From Magnetococcales bacterium (GTDB lineage: Bacteria > Pseudomonadota > Magnetococcia > Magnetococcales > UBA8363): 41,553 nt of DNA. Below are positions 26,641 to 41,553 of the stretch, in pieces. The DNA is taken from assembly GCA_015228925.1 (NCBI GenBank), contig JADGCQ010000001.1:9116-50668 (forward strand). Reading direction: 5' to 3'. The translations under genes and the position numbers were made by a program. Within the stretch, counting starts at the first letter, position 1. Each line of letters begins with the position of its first letter. The notes under the pieces are model-generated. The model did not search any database and had not been told where the DNA came from. It was given only the letters and a program-made list of their open reading frames with translations.

Positions 26641-29600
26641 TCACGACGTCGGGAGGGGATGATTCCAATCAGCCATGCCTGAAGCATCAAAAAAATCGTT
26701 CAACAATGAAAGAGGGGGGGATCCTTGTATGGCACCATCCAAGTGGGCACCATCACCTCCTAAATCATTCTGGGCGGTTATCACATGATGGTAGAACTCT
26801 ACCAAGTCGCCGTAGATCGATTGCACGCTCGGTTGTCCCTGTTGCATATCCATCACATGGAGTTGATCGATCTGTTCCTGGCTCATGGTTCCGGCTGATT
26901 GGGTTTCCATGACCCAATGCATCACATTGACAAACTGCTCCTCAAAGGAAATGTTAGGGTTCAACGATTCATCCCCCTGGGTTTCCACCCCACTATGAGC
27001 AGTGCCAACAGGTTGTTCTGGATGAGTCAAAGCATTCATGAAGTCTATAAACTGTTTTTCAAACGTCGCATCGAACGGATCGACCAAAGTGGTTGCCGCA
27101 GGATCATCAGCATCAGGTGTCCCCGTGCCCGACGCATAGGACATGTTCACGTCCACCATAAGACCCGTCGTCCCATCGGCCTTTTCAAAACGCGCCAGTT
27201 CCGCTATGAAATTGTCGGCCACTTCCGTTGGATGCGGTACCGTTTGTGATGTCAATGTCAAGGCGGTGATACCCAGACGGTCAAGCCCAACCAATGCACC
27301 GTCCGCCGCCCAAACTTGCAGATTGCCGAAGGCCGCATCCTGCATGTCGATACGGTGGTCATGATTGCCATCCAAAGAGGCCAGGGCCGTCAGGCCATTG
27401 GTGCTTTCTGGGGCAAAATATTCGGAAAATACCTCTCGAATATCGTCAATAACCCCATTGCCATTACGATCCATGACCAGGAGACCATCTCCGCCAGCGA
27501 CCCAACCCGTCTGATCCAACACACCATCGGCGTTCATATCGAAAGAAAAAGGATCGGATTGTCTGGACGAAAGTTCAATGCCATTGCCATTCAGGTCCAG
27601 TACCAGAGGATCACCACCCCAGGCGTTGATACCAGCAAGGGCAGTGCCAACATCACGATTGTCCAAGCTGGTATAATACGTGAAAGTGGCCGATGCCCCA
27701 GGAGCAAGCGACCCAACATCAAAGGCGATCGAAATTCCCTGGTCTACAGTATACGTTGTCCCCGCTGCGGGAGCCGACTCATAAACCCCGGGATCATAAA
27801 TATTTTGTATGATGAAACCATCGTTACCATAACCATCAATATACGGACCATAGTAAGAATAGGGAAAGGTCGCAACCTGGGCACGTGCGTCATCCGAATA
27901 GAAAAATATGGAAGCCTGAGTCCCGGTCAGAGTTTGATAAGCATCGCTGGGGAGACTCGTAGCCTGAACCAAAGAACGACCGCTTTCCTGATAGACTATG
28001 GTGTTGATGGTCTCGAAATCTCCCCCCTGGTCAACCGTGTTATCAGGATCAAAGCTGCGCATGAAACGAACCGAGTCCAGAGTATCCGATAAACTCAGGT
28101 TGGTCAGCGTAACAACATTGCGAAAAAAGTTTGCATTGACATCAAAGCAAATGGTTTGCGAAATACCCAGGGCATTATCAAGCGTCCCCGCGATTGTAGC
28201 CGACAAATTATTTCCCGCCGAATGATCCGTAATCGAGAGGATGGTGATGTCATTACCGCCCGAAAGCTGAGAATTCGTACCGACGTGGGGGGTTCCTCCC
28301 ACTTTAAAACCGGCAGTCCAACGCTCTTCGGGTGTGCCGGGAAGAAAGAAATCGATGGCTGAATCAATTCCCTGATTGAAACCATCGTGATCAAAGCTCA
28401 TCCCAATATTGGAGTGACTAGAAGTTCCGTAGAAATCTGTTGGTTTTGAACCCCCGGTACCGAAAGAACCACGGGAGGAGATACCCAACTCAATATAATT
28501 TCCCCCCAGAAAAATTTCACTACCTGCCTTGGTGTGATGCGCCCCTGTAAGGGTTACGGAGGGGGCTATCTCAAGGGCGAAACTTTGACCAGAAACGGTA
28601 TCACTGCCATCGCTCAAAGAAAAAAGAAAGCTGTCACTGGTACTTGCGCCACCATCATGGGTATACCACATGATACCGCTATTGATATCGGCCTGGGTAA
28701 AGGTACTGCCCACTTCCAACGTGGTCCCACCCTTGGTCAGAACGCCATGACCCGGCGAGGCGTCCAGAGTATAAACCAAAGACAATGCGGACAGCGTTTC
28801 CACATCGGTGGTCACAAGGGCAGCAGAAGAGATGACGACATCCCCATCATTGAAAAGAGACGCCCCATGATTGGTGATGACTGGCGTATCGTTGGCACCA
28901 GCAATGTTGATATTCAGAGTCGCCGTTTTGGTCAGCGTTCCATCGTCGGCTGTAACCGAAAAACTGTCCACCCCATTAGAGAGTAGGCTGTTGATGGCTT
29001 GGTCGTTCGGTACAAAAGCATAGACACCACTTGCCGCATGAAGATAAAGCGTTCCGTAGATCCCTTCGTTGATCAGATCATAGGAAACACCGCCGATGGT
29101 GGTGTTAAGACTGGTACCGCCAATCACACCGTATGTGATACTGCCCGAAGAAGAATTGGCGAGCAGCAGAGTACCGTCGGTCTGGGTGAACACATCCAAC
29201 CCAGTCGTATCGACATAGCTGATAGCATCCACGGTAAAACTGGGTGATGGAGGATCAATCACGATCCCAACGACAGAATCCGTGGTCTGACTGACAACAC
29301 TTTCCACAACACCAAAGCCATCGGTGTAGGAAGCGACGACACGGATGGTTTTATCGATCAAGGCGTTGCCCAAAATCAAGGTATCGTCCGTAGCCCCTGT
29401 GATATCAATGCCATCTGCCTGCCATTGATAACCGATCGTTCCCAGTCCATCCACATCGGCCAGGGTATTGGTTGCAGTCAAAGTGTGCCCCTGGATGACC
29501 GTGCCGGAAATGGCAACGACCCCGGTGGGCAAGGTATTCACATGAGTAACCGGGTTGGTGGCACCGCTGGTGATACTCTCCACCGTACCATGACCGTCGG

Positions 29601-31731
29601 TATAAGTGGCAATAACCTTGATGGCCTTTCCGACCTGATTGGCGGCCAACACCCACGTATCTTCCGTAGCACCATCAATGTTCTTTCCATCCGCCTGCCA
29701 CTGATAGGTGACGGTACCCAATCCATCGGCATCCGCCAAAGTGTTACCCGCAATCAGTGTCTGTCCCTGAACGGCGTTACCCAGAATAAACACAGCACCA
29801 GTAGGAAGATCATTGATATTGGCGATCAGATCCGTTTTGTTGCTGGAGATTTTTTCCACCTGACCACGGACATCGGTAACGGTGGCCAAAACATCGATGA
29901 CTTTGCCCACCATACTTTCCGTCAAAGTCAAAGAACTCCCGGTTGCATCACGGATCTCCTTGCCATCCGCCTGCCATTGGTAAGTGATGGTACCCAATCC
30001 ATCGATATCGGCTAAAGTGCTGACAATAGACAGAATTTCATTCTGAACGAATATCCCGGAAACAGTAACCGAGCCAGAAACAGGGTAATTGACAACCGGT
30101 ATCGGTTCCGGTTCCGGCGTCGGTTCCGGTATCGGTTCCGGTTCCGGCGTCGGTTCCGGTTCCGGTGTCGGTTCCGGTTCCGGCGTCGGTTCCGGCGTCG
30201 GTTCCGGTTCCGGTTCCGGCGTCGGTTCCGGTTCCGGCGTCGGTTCCGGTGTCGGTTCCGGTTCCGGTGTCGGTTCCGGTGTCGGTTCCGGTTCCGGTGT
30301 TGGCTCAGATGGCTGTACGGATGGTAATTCGTTGGTTTGTTGCTTGGGTATTTTATTGACGACAAGTGCTTCCGAGGTCAGTTTTGGTTTGGCGACATCC
30401 GGCCCCGTGGCCCCAATCAACCCCCCCAGGGAGAGTTGGGCAGGGGCTTGTTTTGCGGATAAGGTAGTTCCGACATCTTGCGTCGCCACATTTTGACCAG
30501 CCAACACCCCTCCGGTTCCGATTAAATCGGCAAGACTGACAGTATCACCAGGTCCGCTTTCTTGATTATCGGGTGTCTCCGTAAGATCTTCATTCACCCC
30601 TTGTGCGTCGGTGGCAGCGTCACCTCCGCTTGCGGGTCTGCCTTCCCCTGGCGTTTCATTCCCTTCGGTTTTTGCTTGCGGTTCGTTGCCTGCGGCAGGA
30701 GATTCCACACCCTGATTACTCTGGGAATCCTGCGCATTCTCCCCCTGACGTTCCTCTTTGGCCTTACCAATGTCCAATTGTTGATTGATATGGTTCAGGA
30801 AGGTGGCAGGTGCTTTGAACACGGGCTGTGGAGCACCGGCACCAAAAGTTACCTGGGTGGCGGTTCCAGGTTCCACAAGGGTGACAGTCCCCTGTCCTTT
30901 GGCATCAGAGATATCCAAAATACCCGATGAATGAACGACGGTGGTTGATCCATCTTCCGTGACCTCTCCCGCGAGCTGACTGCCCCGAATACCAATCACC
31001 GCCGTTGGGGTTTTGATGGTTGAATGGTGTCCCGTATGCAGGCCAGAAATGGCACCACTTTCAAAACTAAAGATACCCCGGGTAATCGTCGCTTCAAAAC
31101 CTCCCAGTTTTTCGCTGGGATTGAAAATATACTTATCCAAAACCGCCTGAGACTGTTCACCCAATTGAAACGTAGTTCCATCAGGAAAAGTCAGTTTGAC
31201 CAATCCCCCTTTTTGTGTTTTCAGCACATCGCCCTTAAAAACGGCATCGCCCTCCTTGAGGGGTCGTTCCACACCATCGGCCCCCTTAGCGATGACCTCA
31301 CCCAACATTTCCGAAATCTTTCCAATGGGGGATCCGTGTGGTTTGGGAGGGGGTGCCTCAGAGGAGGTTGTGTCAGATTGTGCCGGTGAGGTCGTGTTCA
31401 TGGTTGGCCCTGCAACCATGGTGACCGCCGGGTTTGCGTTGACAACCAGGAGTGCGTGGACGGTTTCCGGCATCAGCAAAGCACCATTGGGTGCCATCAG
31501 GACAGGCGGAACCGATGCATCAAAATAGCCTTCAACCCGGAACGTAGCACCATCAGCACCTGTGATAACAAGATCACCATCCTCCCGCATGTAGCTTCCC
31601 TGAAGCAACATGGCCACATCTGGAATCGTAACCTCCGTTTCCAGGCCGGAAAGTTCCACACCACGGTCATGGTCCAATATTTTACCGGAAGAGAGGGTGA
31701 TCTGACCGGGAACAATGGGTTGTATGCTCAT
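26641..31731 (-). CDS. Giant FecR/Ig-like/VCBS surface protein
   Basis: The 1696-residue protein has no Sec signal peptide. Domains in order: N-terminal domain (1-110); FecR-like domain (about 145-285, [31 protein letters not shown]); acidic low-complexity linker; Pro-Glu-Thr repeat (about 476-546); three 92-residue Ig-like repeats with YQWQADG (about 555-825); a VCBS-like repeat ending [25 protein letters not shown]; and a cadherin/CSPG-like repeat. Further on is a beta-rich domain, then calcium-loop-like segments ([33 protein letters not shown]). Family knowledge points to type I secretion and an adhesin-like role. GGAG lies seven bases before the ATG. The 26520-26640 gap to the TPR gene shows no clear terminator. 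Confidence 0.88.
29250..30075 (-). repeat. Three tandem 276-bp (92-residue) Ig-like repeats
   Basis: The codons for YQWQADG recur at about 29972, 29696 and 29420, an exact 276-bp spacing. Each unit also carries a TLADxDGLGTI stretch just before and a TYTDGxGxVES stretch after. The units are homologous but clearly diverged, unlike the neighbouring minisatellite. Confidence 0.85.
30096..30302 (-). repeat. Pro-Glu-Thr minisatellite in the FecR-protein gene
   Basis: About 207 bp of GGTTCCGG-type units with lengths in multiples of 6 bp (mostly 12 and 18) encode about 70 residues of [11 protein letters not shown] on the minus strand. It forms a stiff extended linker between the FecR part and the Ig-like repeats. 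Unit gain or loss would stay in frame and alter linker length. Confidence 0.95.
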
Positions 31732-32102: not shown

Positions 32103-32149
32103 TGGCGTCCCCGGCGCGATTTGAACGCACGGCCTACGGATTAGGAATC
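32103..32149 (-). tRNA. 3' fragment of tRNA-Arg(CCT); attachment-site half
   Basis: Read on the minus strand, the segment contains the anticodon loop TTCCTAA (anticodon CCT), the 3' anticodon stem TCCGT, a T-arm (GTGCG TTCAAAT CGCGC), the acceptor 3' strand CGGGGAC, a discriminator G and an encoded CCA. The 5' half is absent: no GTCCCCG acceptor strand or D-arm lies in the next 80 bases, and the 5' anticodon stem is imperfect. CGGGGAC is the acceptor strand usual for tRNA-Arg(CCT). The fragment is what site-specific integration into a tRNA 3' half leaves at one junction. It is not a functional tRNA. Confidence 0.85.
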
Positions 32150-34531
<2,382 letters not shown>

Positions 34532-34544
34532 GAGTGAAATTAAA

Positions 34545-35525
34545 ATGAACGAATGCTCTTGCTACTATGACGGGCCAATGCCGTCGTTCTACAGAAGCGA
34601 ACCAGTGACAGCAAGAAAAACACACATTTGCTGCGAGTGTCGCCGTGAGATTAAACGTGGGGAAATATACATGAGTGCTGCTGGTGTGTGGGAGGGCGAC
34701 TTTGAAACTTTCAAAACTTGCCATATCTGCTCCGCTATTATAGAGCAGTTAAACTTATGTATGGGCCATGGTTCAATGAAAGAAGAAATCGAAAACAGTT
34801 TTGATGATCTGGAAGAATTTGTAGGCAGGGAAATGTATCTCTTCATCCAGTTTTGGATTTATAGGAAACCAAAAATTGATTGTGTTCATTGCAATGGAGA
34901 AGGTGGAATAGATTTAGAGGAAGATTGCCTGATGTGCGGTGGGACGGGTAGGTGGCATTATAAAATGGATCATGTGTTGTTTAAGCCGGAAACATATAGA
35001 ATTAAAATGAACTTGGTAGATTTATGCGCAAATTATCCATCTGAATTGGCAAGGTCCATGGTGGCTTATGATGAATTCGGAGCGCATAGGGATTCACTTT
35101 ATGTCATCAGGCACGGAGGGATGAAAAACTTGCGAGGGGCAAATCTAGCTGGGACAAATTTACGTGACGCAGAATTGCATGATGCTGATTTACGATTAGC
35201 CAACTTTTCTATGGCTAATTTAAGATTTGCTAATTTTACCAAAGCGGATGTTCGTGGTGCAGTTTTTGATGGAGCCGATATAACTTATGCCAATTTTACG
35301 GGGACAGTTGGCATAAATTCCGTTTTCCCTGCTGTTCGTATCTCTGGCTGCTGGGTACATATGATCGATCATGGTGCTTACCCAATGTTCCATATTGGTG
35401 ATTTCTGGGGCGATTATGCGTCTGCAATAGATTATGTTTCAGCAGAATTTGCCAAAGAAAAAGAAGTGTACATTGACGCGATCAACACTCTCAATAACTC
35501 TTTCAGGCCGTTGGAGATGCAATGA
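34545..35525 (+). CDS. Zinc-ribbon/pentapeptide-repeat fusion protein
   Basis: The 326-residue protein has three parts. The first (about 10-70) has two CxxC-type pairs in HICCECRREIKRGEIYMSA and FKTCHICSAI, a zinc-ribbon pattern seen in small phage proteins. The second (about 118-150) has DnaJ-like CVHCNGEGG and CLMCGGTGR. The third (about 195-270) is a pentapeptide-repeat block (NLRGANLAGTNLRDAELHDADL...), which forms a right-handed quadrilateral helix. The fusion is not one I recognise and no function can be assigned; pentapeptide proteins include DNA mimics that act on gyrase. ATG 34545 has GGAG upstream, 14 bases after ligA. The sequence is more AT-rich than ligA. It overlaps the next gene as ATGA. 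Confidence 0.75.
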   Translation: MNECSCYYDGPMPSFYRSEPVTARKTHICCECRREIKRGEIYMSAAGVWEGDFETFKTCHICSAIIEQLNLCMGHGSMKEEIENSFDDLEEFVGREMYLFIQFWIYRKPKIDCVHCNGEGGIDLEEDCLMCGGTGRWHYKMDHVLFKPETYRIKMNLVDLCANYPSELARSMVAYDEFGAHRDSLYVIRHGGMKNLRGANLAGTNLRDAELHDADLRLANFSMANLRFANFTKADVRGAVFDGADITYANFTGTVGINSVFPAVRISGCWVHMIDHGAYPMFHIGDFWGDYASAIDYVSAEFAKEKEVYIDAINTLNNSFRPLEMQ

Positions 35526-35872
35526 ACGTAACTATACAAGGGCAAAGGTTTGACACGTCCACGGCCTTACTCATTGGGGAAGCTGAAAGAATCAATGAGT
35601 GTTTTTTTTCTTGGAGTGCCGGGTTGTATAGGACGCCACGGAGCAAAGTGTATTTTTTGGCGGGGAAAGGTGGTCTTCTTACTCGGTGGGCAAATGCTGA
35701 GAGAATTTTACCAATCACAAATGAAGATGCACTAAAGTGGGCCAAGGCTTATTTGAGTGAGAAACAGGTCAAAACGGTTTTTGATCACTTATGGAACTTG
35801 ATGAAGTTGGATTTTGAAAGTAAAATACCAAAAATTCCGCAGGAAGGACAAATAAGATGCGTCAGATCGTAG
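35522..35872 (+). CDS. Hypothetical element protein
   Basis: The 116-residue soluble protein (MNVTIQGQRFDT...) is not recognised. It has an aromatic-rich first half and a helical second half (NEDALKWAKAYLSEKQVKTVFDHLW). It overlaps the pentapeptide gene by 4 nt (ATGA) and the NrdJb-like gene by 16 nt, so these three are likely translationally coupled. AT-rich codon use matches its upstream neighbour. Confidence 0.65.
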   Translation: MNVTIQGQRFDTSTALLIGEAERINECFFSWSAGLYRTPRSKVYFLAGKGGLLTRWANAERILPITNEDALKWAKAYLSEKQVKTVFDHLWNLMKLDFESKIPKIPQEGQIRCVRS

Positions 35873-36474
35873 CATCAAAAATAGTCAAATGTGAAGTTGT
35901 AGACAATGCAAAGCCAGGTACGGAAACCCCATGCGCCGAAATCCATCAGATCCAACCATTACTGAAACGCCCGAAAGACCTTGAAGGCTTCACTTACAAA
36001 GTGAGAACCCCGTTGTCTGAGGCTGCATTGTATATCACGATCAACGACATCATTGTTAATGGCAAAAAACGTCCGTTTGAGATTTTCATCAATTCCAAGA
36101 ATATGGAAAATTTCGCCTGGATTGTCGCTTTGACCCGGATTCTATCGGCTGTTTTCCGGCATGGTGGCGACGCCACTTTTCTTGTTGATGAGTTGCGTTC
36201 GGTCTTTGATCCGAGGGGTGGGTATTTCCAGCCGGGTGGCAAGTACATGCCAAGCCTGGTTGCTGAAATCGGGGAGTGCATCGAAAATCATATGATTAAA
36301 ATTGGTATGATCGAACCCATGGAGGTGACGCCGGAACTGGCCGCTAAACGGGAAGAGGCTAAGACGAAGGGTGTTACGGGGGGCAGTCAATGTCCAAAAT
36401 GCAACCAGATGACGGTCGTGAAGCTGGACGGGTGCGATACCTGCCTGGATTGCGGGTACTCAAAATGCGGCTAA
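35857..36474 (+). CDS. nrdJb: NrdJb-like C-terminal part of class II ribonucleotide reductase
   Basis: The 205-residue protein closely resembles the C-terminal segment of B12-dependent (class II) ribonucleotide reductase, encoded separately as NrdJb in some bacteria. Diagnostic stretches are LEGFTYKVRTPLSEAALY, ITINDIIVNGKKRPFEIFI, SKNMENFAWIVALTRILSAV, RHGGDATFLVDEL, VFDPRGGYFQPGGKYMPS and LVAEIGECIENHM. The tail CPKCNQ...CDTCLDCGYSKCG has the cysteine pairs that recycle the active site or bind zinc. The catalytic NrdJa part is not in the visible part of the element. It may pair with a host or element NrdJa, or act on the host enzyme. The start overlaps the upstream gene by 16 nt. Confidence 0.85.
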   Translation: MRQIVASKIVKCEVVDNAKPGTETPCAEIHQIQPLLKRPKDLEGFTYKVRTPLSEAALYITINDIIVNGKKRPFEIFINSKNMENFAWIVALTRILSAVFRHGGDATFLVDELRSVFDPRGGYFQPGGKYMPSLVAEIGECIENHMIKIGMIEPMEVTPELAAKREEAKTKGVTGGSQCPKCNQMTVVKLDGCDTCLDCGYSKCG

Positions 36475-36513: not shown

Positions 36514-36822
36514 ATGAGAACCAAAAGAAACCCGATCAACGCTTGTGATTGTGATTGGTTCCCACCACTCAATGAATTTTACAATGCACCCCGCTACTTT
36601 TCGCGTAGGGATGCAGAACAGGCAGCAAAGATCATGGGAATTGGGGCGGGCAACGTGCTTAAAATAGCTTTCCGTTTTGAGACCGTCTGGATGGTTGGAC
36701 TTATCCAGTCTCACCCGGAAGTAAATGCCGGAGTTGTCCAGGATGTGCTGCGTCTGCCGATGGAATCGTTCACTGGCGACAAGCGCGATGTCGCCACATT
36801 CAGGAAGGTGAGGCGGGGATAG
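36514..36822 (+). CDS. Hypothetical element protein, tandem paralogue 1
   Basis: The 102-residue protein is not recognised by family. It is a clear paralogue of the next gene: both share WYP/WFP...N, APRY, RRDAEQAAK, a central hydrophobic strand with ETVWMVG/EIVWMVG, and an almost identical C-terminus (AGVVQDVLRLPM...SFTGDKR...VATFRK). The Shine-Dalgarno leader ATAGGAAATC is also shared in modified form. The CDCDW near the N-terminus is unique to this copy. Confidence 0.65.
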   Translation: MRTKRNPINACDCDWFPPLNEFYNAPRYFSRRDAEQAAKIMGIGAGNVLKIAFRFETVWMVGLIQSHPEVNAGVVQDVLRLPMESFTGDKRDVATFRKVRRG

Positions 36823-36832
36823 ATAGGCAATC

Positions 36833-37147
36833 ATGATAACCACAACAAAAATCATCGACTATCTTGAGGATTGGTATCCACGCCTTAACGGGTTCGACGG
36901 CGCACCCCGCTACTCTACACGCCGGGATGCGGAACAGGCAGCTAAGAGCATGGAATTGAGTATATCCAGCGTGGTTCGGATCATTTTCCTGTTTGAAATC
37001 GTCTGGATGGTCGGGACTGTAGATTCTCAACCGAGCGAAATTGCCGGAGTTGTCCAGGATGTGCTGCGTCTGCCGATGTCATCATTCACAGGCGACAAGC
37101 GCAATGTCGCCACATTCAGAAAGTTCAGAGATGTAAGGCTGGGATAG
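36833..37147 (+). CDS. Hypothetical element protein, tandem paralogue 2
   Basis: The 104-residue protein is the second copy of the tandem duplication, starting 319 bases after the first. The N-terminal third differs while the last 35 codons are nearly identical at DNA level. That suggests either a recent duplication with fast change at the front, or gene conversion of the end. Its leader ATAGGCAATC resembles that of copy 1. Confidence 0.65.
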   Translation: MITTTKIIDYLEDWYPRLNGFDGAPRYSTRRDAEQAAKSMELSISSVVRIIFLFEIVWMVGTVDSQPSEIAGVVQDVLRLPMSSFTGDKRNVATFRKFRDVRLG

Positions 37148-38186: not shown

Positions 38187-38813
38187 TCAGGCGGGGCTTG
38201 TAGTCTTCGCCATTTTGCAAAAATCCTGTTCAATCCGGCTCGCCACCGGGGAATCTTGGCCATGGTATTTTGCCCCAGGCTTGGAACCGTAAGGCAGTGA
38301 TGACGGACTTGATAACCCCTCAAACGAGATGGCCCCAATTCTGAGACCGGGTGCCAGGGCAAGCGTCAGTGGTCCAGCGTTGAAAAACTCCAGGGTGATT
38401 TTACCGTTCCAACCCGGATCAATGGCAAAGGCCGTGATGTGGATCATCAATCCGAGCCTTGCCAAGCTGGACCTGCCATCCAGCCAGCCAACCATATCGT
38501 TTGGGATCTTTACTCTCTCCTTGGTGATGCCGAGCGCAAACGCTCCGGGTGGCAAACAGAACCTCCCGTGATCCTCAACAATGGTGGTCTCCATACCATC
38601 CTGTGCGTTGAATGCCGAGTGGTCATGGATTGCATGGCGGTTAAGATCCATAAGGTCGTAATACATCGGATCTTTCTGTCTGATTATTTTGAACGTGTTA
38701 CCTAATGTCAGGTCCACAGAGAAAGATCCAAAGCATTCAATTGCTGGCATTGGATCAATCTCAATCAACCCTGCCGTCATGGCAAACTTAACGTCCTGAT
38801 CTGACAATCTCAT
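38187..38813 (-). CDS. dcd: dCTP deaminase
   Basis: Dcd deaminates dCTP to dUTP, feeding dTTP synthesis. The 208-residue protein has the family motifs SFSVDLTLGN, LPPGAFALGITKERVKIP, the active-site run GRSSLARLGLMIHITAFAID-PGWNGKITLEFFN, and the C-terminal ISFEGLSSPSSLPYG...AKYHGQDSPVASRIEQD. It is slightly longer than usual at the C-terminus. The ATG overlaps the stop of the ParB-like gene by 4 nt (ATGA), so the two are coupled. Phages often carry dcd to shift host dNTP pools or as part of modified-base pathways. Confidence 0.93.
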   Translation of the reverse strand: MRLSDQDVKFAMTAGLIEIDPMPAIECFGSFSVDLTLGNTFKIIRQKDPMYYDLMDLNRHAIHDHSAFNAQDGMETTIVEDHGRFCLPPGAFALGITKERVKIPNDMVGWLDGRSSLARLGLMIHITAFAIDPGWNGKITLEFFNAGPLTLALAPGLRIGAISFEGLSSPSSLPYGSKPGAKYHGQDSPVASRIEQDFCKMAKTTSPA

Positions 38814-40419: not shown

Positions 40420-41553
40420 TTATATTGAAGCTTCAAACAAAACTATCTGTGATTCGTAATACCTTACAATTTCAAGAGATGTTACGATGTGGGTTTGGTT
40501 CGCATCATGAGTGACGCCCGTGATCTTTCCACGCCATGATTTTCCAAACAATGCGTCATGGACTTCAACAAGCTGCCCAGGCATAAACCCAGGCCGATGG
40601 ATGCAGGTCAGTGATACCTCTTGCAGCGATTCCCCACTGTCAATCTCAGCTTGCCCCCTGGACCGCTTGGCCAATTCGGTCGTCAAAAGCGGATCGGTAA
40701 TATCTTCCCCGGAAAACTCCCCATCCCCGCGCTGGCAAATAAGTTCTCCAGCCCCCAAACCATCCAAGAACGAACCACCGAACCGAGTAAGAATTGGAAA
40801 AACATCTATATCGAAACTTGCATATTCTGCAAATTTCGCCACCGCTTGTGCGGCAGAGGAAACCAACGTAACTCTTGCCTTGGCAATCGGTTTGTAGCTG
40901 TTTTTATAGGTTGGCACAGGCATCCTCTCTGCCAAGATCGTTCTTTTATTCGCTAACAAGGTGAGATTCCCAAGGTTTCCACTTGTCCATGAAAACTGCT
41001 TGATTGAATCTACTGGCCGATCTAGCGTGACAGAATTTGCGTTTGAGAATGTTATCTCATGCACTGTTTCTGAATCAATCATCCGGTAGTCAAATGGCGA
41101 AGTTAACGCCCACACGGTGGCGTGAGAATAATAATTCACACGCGCAATGCCCACGCCAGAATATTCAGCCACCACGGATTTTCTGTCTGCGCTTAAAGAT
41201 AAACTACCAAGGCCGCGCCCTATCCAGATATAATTCTCTATTTGATAGGATTGTTTATTCAATGTGGCGACGTTGGTGTTTGAGAATGTTACATCCTGAG
41301 AGAATTTTATATTTCTTTCACCAACAAAACGCATATTCCCATCAGAGTACATTGGATCTTCAAGATTGACGCCATCATCCTTAAACACCAGTATATAGAC
41401 CGTATCGCCAGGAAAGAAAGTCGTTCGTCCACCATTAAAACCATCGCGCCTTGAATCAACTTCGGCAGAAATGGATTTTGATGCGGATTCGCTTCGGATT
41501 ACAACTTTGTCAACCCTGGACGGAAAAATGTGATTCTCAGTGCATGACAGGTT
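40420..41553 (-). CDS. Phage tail/virion-like protein, C-terminal part (runs off right edge)
   Basis: The minus-strand frame is open from the window edge to a stop at 40420, giving 377 visible residues with no fixed start; the GTG at 41388 is internal because the frame continues upstream (TTFFPGDTVYILVF). Two beta-rich repeats of 79 residues (237 bp) begin with VTFSNTN and ITFSNAN. The C-terminal part (FGGSFLDGLGAGELI, GEFSGEDITDPLLTTELAKRSRGQAEI, FMPGQLVEVHDALFGKSWRGKITGV) looks like tail or baseplate proteins by style and by position. Assignment to a specific virion part is not possible here. Confidence 0.6.
   Translation of the reverse strand, partial: NLSCTENHIFPSRVDKVVIRSESASKSISAEVDSRRDGFNGGRTTFFPGDTVYILVFKDDGVNLEDPMYSDGNMRFVGERNIKFSQDVTFSNTNVATLNKQSYQIENYIWIGRGLGSLSLSADRKSVVAEYSGVGIARVNYYSHATVWALTSPFDYRMIDSETVHEITFSNANSVTLDRPVDSIKQFSWTSGNLGNLTLLANKRTILAERMPVPTYKNSYKPIAKARVTLVSSAAQAVAKFAEYASFDIDVFPILTRFGGSFLDGLGAGELICQRGDGEFSGEDITDPLLTTELAKRSRGQAEIDSGESLQEVSLTCIHRPGFMPGQLVEVHDALFGKSWRGKITGVTHDANQTHIVTSLEIVRYYESQIVLFEASI

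Follow-up and report, generated by a model that had tools for sequence, protein, structure and literature searches.

The class II ribonucleotide reductase of Pseudomonas aeruginosa is split over two chains: NrdJa holds the active site, and a separate NrdJb, required in vivo, performs thiol-disulfide exchange, with a binding Kd of 54-690 nM (PMC4520616). In a fused relative, the CRD and tail of one subunit can serve the active site of another subunit and CRDs participate in oligomerisation, and a CRD of S. nassauensis expressed on its own failed to reconstitute the normally fused enzyme (PMC5704485). Fused NrdJ proteins are also found in Roseobacter, Synechococcus and Haloarcula phages (PMC5704485, PMC3653736), and Thermus phage phiYS40 encodes a split pair with nrdJ-a directly upstream of nrdJ-b. 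Phage ribonucleotide reductases have been counted as whole enzymes. A literature search on 'TSCPD', the domain concerned, found nothing relevant.

We analyzed a stretch of 41,553 nucleotides from a Magnetococcales genome (hereafter the window), in which the forward-strand ORF at 35857-36474 encodes a stand-alone NrdJb of 205 aa, starting with ATG and ending in the tail CDTCLDCGYSKCG. The protein has a Pfam TSCPD match above cut-off (E=3.7e-10), matches the PHROG family 'ribonucleotide reductase' (E=5e-37), aligns with the last ~170 residues of the fused B12-dependent reductase model, and is 78% identical over residues 22-205 to the NrdJb of the host; comparison by sequence with solved structures gave no true match. 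A previous sequence-only reading had seen here only the C-terminal part of a class II enzyme, with its redox/zinc tail. The ORF and its tail are real and the domain match stands, but the gene is not partial: since the host makes its class II enzyme as separate NrdJa and NrdJb chains, this C-terminal part is here an entire gene. The window ORF is therefore a complete NrdJb and not a torn-off tail.

As in P. aeruginosa (PMC4520616), the window protein is a separate small subunit with an IscU-like core and a six-cysteine zinc tail. The TSCPD core (residues 42-153; 35980-36315, + strand), delimited by Pfam, the predicted model and fold comparison, is followed by the zinc/redox tail (C179, C182, C193, C196, C199 and C204; 36391-36471, + strand), whose cysteine order is the one described for S. 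nassauensis (PMC5704485). The predicted monomer (mean pLDDT 84, ~90+ in the core) consists of an IscU-like core, a helix and a zinc-ribbon-like end; most of residues 1-23 fall below pLDDT 50. IscU and SufU recur among the top fold matches of this model at a middling score (Z 5-6); since unrelated proteins also appear among these matches, the fold search agrees with the published IscU-like description (PMC9669993) without proving it. The window protein also shares its domain and tail with the CRD of fused NrdJ, including that of the phages cited above. However, the chain of fused NrdJ includes the catalytic barrel and has no N-terminal decapeptide, whereas the opposite holds for the window NrdJb.

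This decapeptide, found ahead of the core in separate NrdJb proteins, has the form I-[DE]-x-K-I-V-G-Y-x-V and is a signature derived in the present analysis; the window copy reads VASKIVKCEV (35869-35898, + strand). Scored with a weight matrix built from 78 genome-borne split NrdJb, the window decapeptide reaches 12.7 bits, whereas 99% of shuffled sequences stay below 4.1. The signature was found in 39 of 43 other independent split NrdJb and in 12 of 13 orphans with a tail, near-duplicates among them; neither the 21 fused NrdJ nor the 15 true tail-less proteins (duplicates included) contain it. Two candidates for tail-less proteins with a decapeptide (L067 and L185) both have NrdJa beside them, and were therefore discounted as products of a contig end or a disrupted frame. 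As the decapeptide, a disordered stretch of the monomer model, occurs only where two chains must meet, we infer that it serves as a docking strand for NrdJa. If so, tailed orphans, the window copy included, are predicted to bind NrdJa in trans, and the signature would provide a simple test for telling lone TSCPD proteins expected to act on NrdJa from those that are not.

The nrdJb of P. aeruginosa is cotranscribed with a chromosomal nrdJa, whereas the window nrdJb stands alone on a prophage, after a ligase gene, and is a second copy. The single PF02867 match in this 99.4%-complete genome is a 715-aa nrdJa ORF on another contig (C190; E=1e-127), with the host nrdJb 21 bases downstream. The dnaA and dnaN genes come next, directly adjoining this pair (L014:3917-9383), which possibly lies near the replication origin. 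Besides this copy, no PF02867 catalytic partner was found on the prophage, on its contig or in the whole genome, and no NrdD (class III enzyme) was found in the host genome. Adjacency to nrdJa, usual for NrdJb although not required of it, is thus absent, as is the catalytic subunit that a complete phage-encoded ribonucleotide reductase would bring on the element; phiYS40 likewise has a separate phage-encoded NrdJb, but with its own NrdJa directly upstream. The window copy is the second, stand-alone NrdJb of the genome, and, within the limits of the assembly, an element-borne NrdJa partner is excluded. The earlier remark that no catalytic half is nearby was therefore correct. The search of element and host for nrdJa, which had been proposed as a check, returned one host copy and none on the element, so that the suggested pairing with a distant element-borne NrdJa is not supported: the only NrdJa of the genome sits in a normal host nrdJa-nrdJb pair.

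The mobile element on which the gene had been placed is a prophage of ~76 kb (contig 41222-117198) whose ends are marked by a 44-bp exact direct repeat. The left copy (attL, 32107-32150, without strand) exactly matches the 3' part of tRNA-Arg(CCT), and the right copy (C111:117155-117198) lies inside an intact tRNA-Arg and adjoins a tyrosine integrase; terminase and tail genes are present in between. Because the left end is at attL, the gene for an NAD-dependent, LigA-like DNA ligase (32522-34531, + strand) is also prophage-borne; a second LigA, that of the host (contig C77), is 51% identical to it. The ligase heads a tight same-strand run that continues with a pentapeptide-repeat protein with a Cys-rich N-terminal part (34545-35525, + strand; ORF listed from 34497, likely start at 34545) and a 116-aa protein (35522-35872, + strand), and in which nrdJb is fourth, 3.7 kb inward from the prophage end. 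Translational coupling of the upstream genes was correctly recognized from the sequence: an ATGA is common to the 342-aa and 116-aa ORFs, and the latter runs 16 bases into the start of nrdJb. Their description as unrelated to it holds only in part, given the phage DNA ligase at the head of the run and a dCTP deaminase of the prophage (38187-38813, - strand) 1.7 kb beyond nrdJb on the opposite strand. Scans for promoters and terminators gave nothing above shuffled sequences, and no convincing NrdR boxes were found near the operon or upstream of the host nrdJa.

Directly 3' of nrdJb lie two tandem paralogues, of 102 aa (36514-36822, + strand) and 104 aa (36833-37147, + strand), and a phage tail protein gene (40420-41553, - strand) continues past the window end. 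Just outside the prophage, the window also encodes a 1696-aa protein with a long Pro-Glu/Thr repeat (26641-31731, - strand).

Comparison of the window and host nrdJb gave a dN of 0.21 and a saturated dS of about 1.5-2.3, with 47, 28 and 112 differences at codon positions 1, 2 and 3, respectively. Judged by this codon pattern, the window nrdJb is under purifying selection. All six tail cysteines are kept, as are 99 of 105 order-invariant sites, i.e. sites with at most one exception among 30 housekeeping NrdJb of Magnetococcales; H56, otherwise invariant in the housekeeping copies of the order, is replaced by Ala. In a tree of 70 proteins, the window copy and the housekeeping NrdJb of its genus are sisters (support 99/92); the terminal branch leading to the window copy, 0.41, is long compared with its relatives. 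The sister position indicates that the gene was acquired from a host of the same lineage, and the saturated synonymous divergence that the capture is old, not recent.

We searched 48 Magnetococcales genomes and found one housekeeping NrdJb in most, plus more than ten extra copies. PF02867 is matched in all 27 good genomes of the order, in nearly every case once, and two or three matches occur in G007, G025 and G033, which are incomplete or more contaminated. Across 249 sampled genomes of the phylum, Magnetococcales alone yielded extra lone copies, besides possible fragments in G166. Two tailed orphans (L055 and L057) lie near phage genes resembling those of the window prophage. Further tailed orphans occur on viral contigs whose records contain no NrdJa (L071, L079, L080, L081, L085, L093-L096, L099 and L106), although these may be fragments, so that a missing NrdJa there is not proof. 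Several viral orphans adjoin terminase, portal, protease or tail genes, and ThyX lies near that of L079. In each of the six isolate-phage records examined, the domain forms one chain with NrdJa or lies beside it, and the plasmid matches to P0001 that were listed are annotated as ordinary reductases or lack annotation. The tree requires several separate origins both of orphans and of tail loss, with support that is weak in places and long branches. On two viral contigs (L068/L069), split NrdJa and NrdJb lie far apart in the same record.

Tail-less TSCPD proteins were found at L050-L054 and L058-L062, that of L062 being very divergent. They keep the core only, and since both decapeptide and redox tail are missing, their sequences suggest that they probably do not act as NrdJb but do something else. 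Those of the Magnetococcales loci L053, L054 and L058 resemble the window NrdJb in having the same IscU-like core and in standing alone on prophage-like elements, but they lie in a recombinase module and lack the two features that the window copy retains. The module comprises the tail-less protein, a ~67-92-aa protein, a DUF2924 protein and a serine recombinase (L053:687-4463, L054:8996-11832, L058:8794-12504). An S24/LexA-type repressor gene is located just upstream in L053 and L058, and a different gene in L054. The tail-less branch may be mixed, as L070, another such protein, adjoins dUTPase and thymidylate kinase.

Taken with the genomic context and the recurrence of orphans, the features of the window copy make it probable that the prophage nrdJb is a phage auxiliary gene, supplying a complete, host-derived NrdJb in trans to the host NrdJa during infection. 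Once expressed, the protein would bind the only NrdJa of the host through its N-terminal decapeptide and IscU-like core, and its six-cysteine zinc tail would re-reduce the NrdJa active site after each turnover. The host class II enzyme would thereby be kept running, or be put under a phage-controlled NrdJb supply, during phage DNA synthesis. Binding to the host NrdJa and redox activity are expected by analogy with P. aeruginosa and the CRD of the fused relative, and expression timing and benefit to the phage are presumed. Neighbours with roles in DNA and nucleotide metabolism, the ligase and dCTP deaminase here and ThyX near the L079 orphan, argue for such a role; H56A, the long end branch (0.41) and the failure of the separate S. 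nassauensis CRD (PMC5704485) argue against it. Moreover, as the host already produces NrdJb, an extra supply would be useful only if the host protein were limiting, shut off or inactivated during infection. The sequence-only reading is thus confirmed as an observation and partly supported in its interpretation: of the fates it proposed, replacement of or competition with the host's own NrdJb is the best supported, the only NrdJa of the genome being that of the host.

Competition for the same NrdJa site could also serve as a brake, the prophage protein binding NrdJa but working poorly or differently, so as to lower or re-tune the host enzyme, for example in its oligomers or allosteric response. 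The participation of CRDs in oligomerisation (PMC5704485), H56A, the longer branch and the complete loss of the redox tail in related prophage proteins are compatible with this. However, a decoy has no need of a tail, whereas the window copy, under purifying selection, has lost none of its six cysteines and few of the invariant sites, and the tail-less proteins are poor models of an NrdJa decoy because they also lack the decapeptide; we therefore regard a brake as unlikely. Little credence can likewise be given to a function outside ribonucleotide reduction, for instance as a redox- or zinc-dependent regulator or a virion part, even if some viral orphans lie beside head or tail genes and the tail-less relatives in repressor-recombinase modules. 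Repurposing, which had also been suggested, becomes less likely for the window copy in that it keeps every feature of a working NrdJb that can be read from a sequence, redox cysteines, decapeptide and order-invariant sites alike, and that its neighbours are a ligase and a dCTP deaminase and not head genes.

That a host gene was acquired and kept by chance would fit the sister position to the NrdJb of the genus. This is nevertheless very improbable: despite an ancient capture, the reading frame remains intact and under constraint, a codon pattern that largely refutes mere cargo, and orphans arose repeatedly. An ordinary split enzyme with its NrdJa elsewhere on the same element has precedents in the L068/L069 virus, with its distant NrdJa, and in the adjacent pair of Thermus phage YS40, but is scarcely credible here, where the sole NrdJa of a 99.4%-complete genome lies on a different contig, next to an NrdJb of its own.

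The window NrdJb is a protein of a known kind; what is unusual, and recurs, is its arrangement, which varies the theme of the phage ribonucleotide reductase. More tentatively, phages of hosts with a split class II enzyme might repeatedly have gone 'tail-only', carrying just the docking and redox subunit and taking over the host catalytic subunit, with a sister branch cut down to the IscU-like core and moved into lysogeny control modules. A lone NrdJb (about 0.6 kb) would be a cheap means of controlling the host enzyme in trans; it would also go some way towards explaining what the splitting of NrdJ permits. Some stand-alone viral entries in databases carry the plain name 'ribonucleoside-diphosphate reductase', which makes them easy to overlook.

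A further arrangement was observed in two of the tail-less proteins (L050:88-681 and L051:1-575), in which an N-terminal stretch with CxxC...CxxC, possibly zinc-binding, is fused to the TSCPD core, their only Pfam name.
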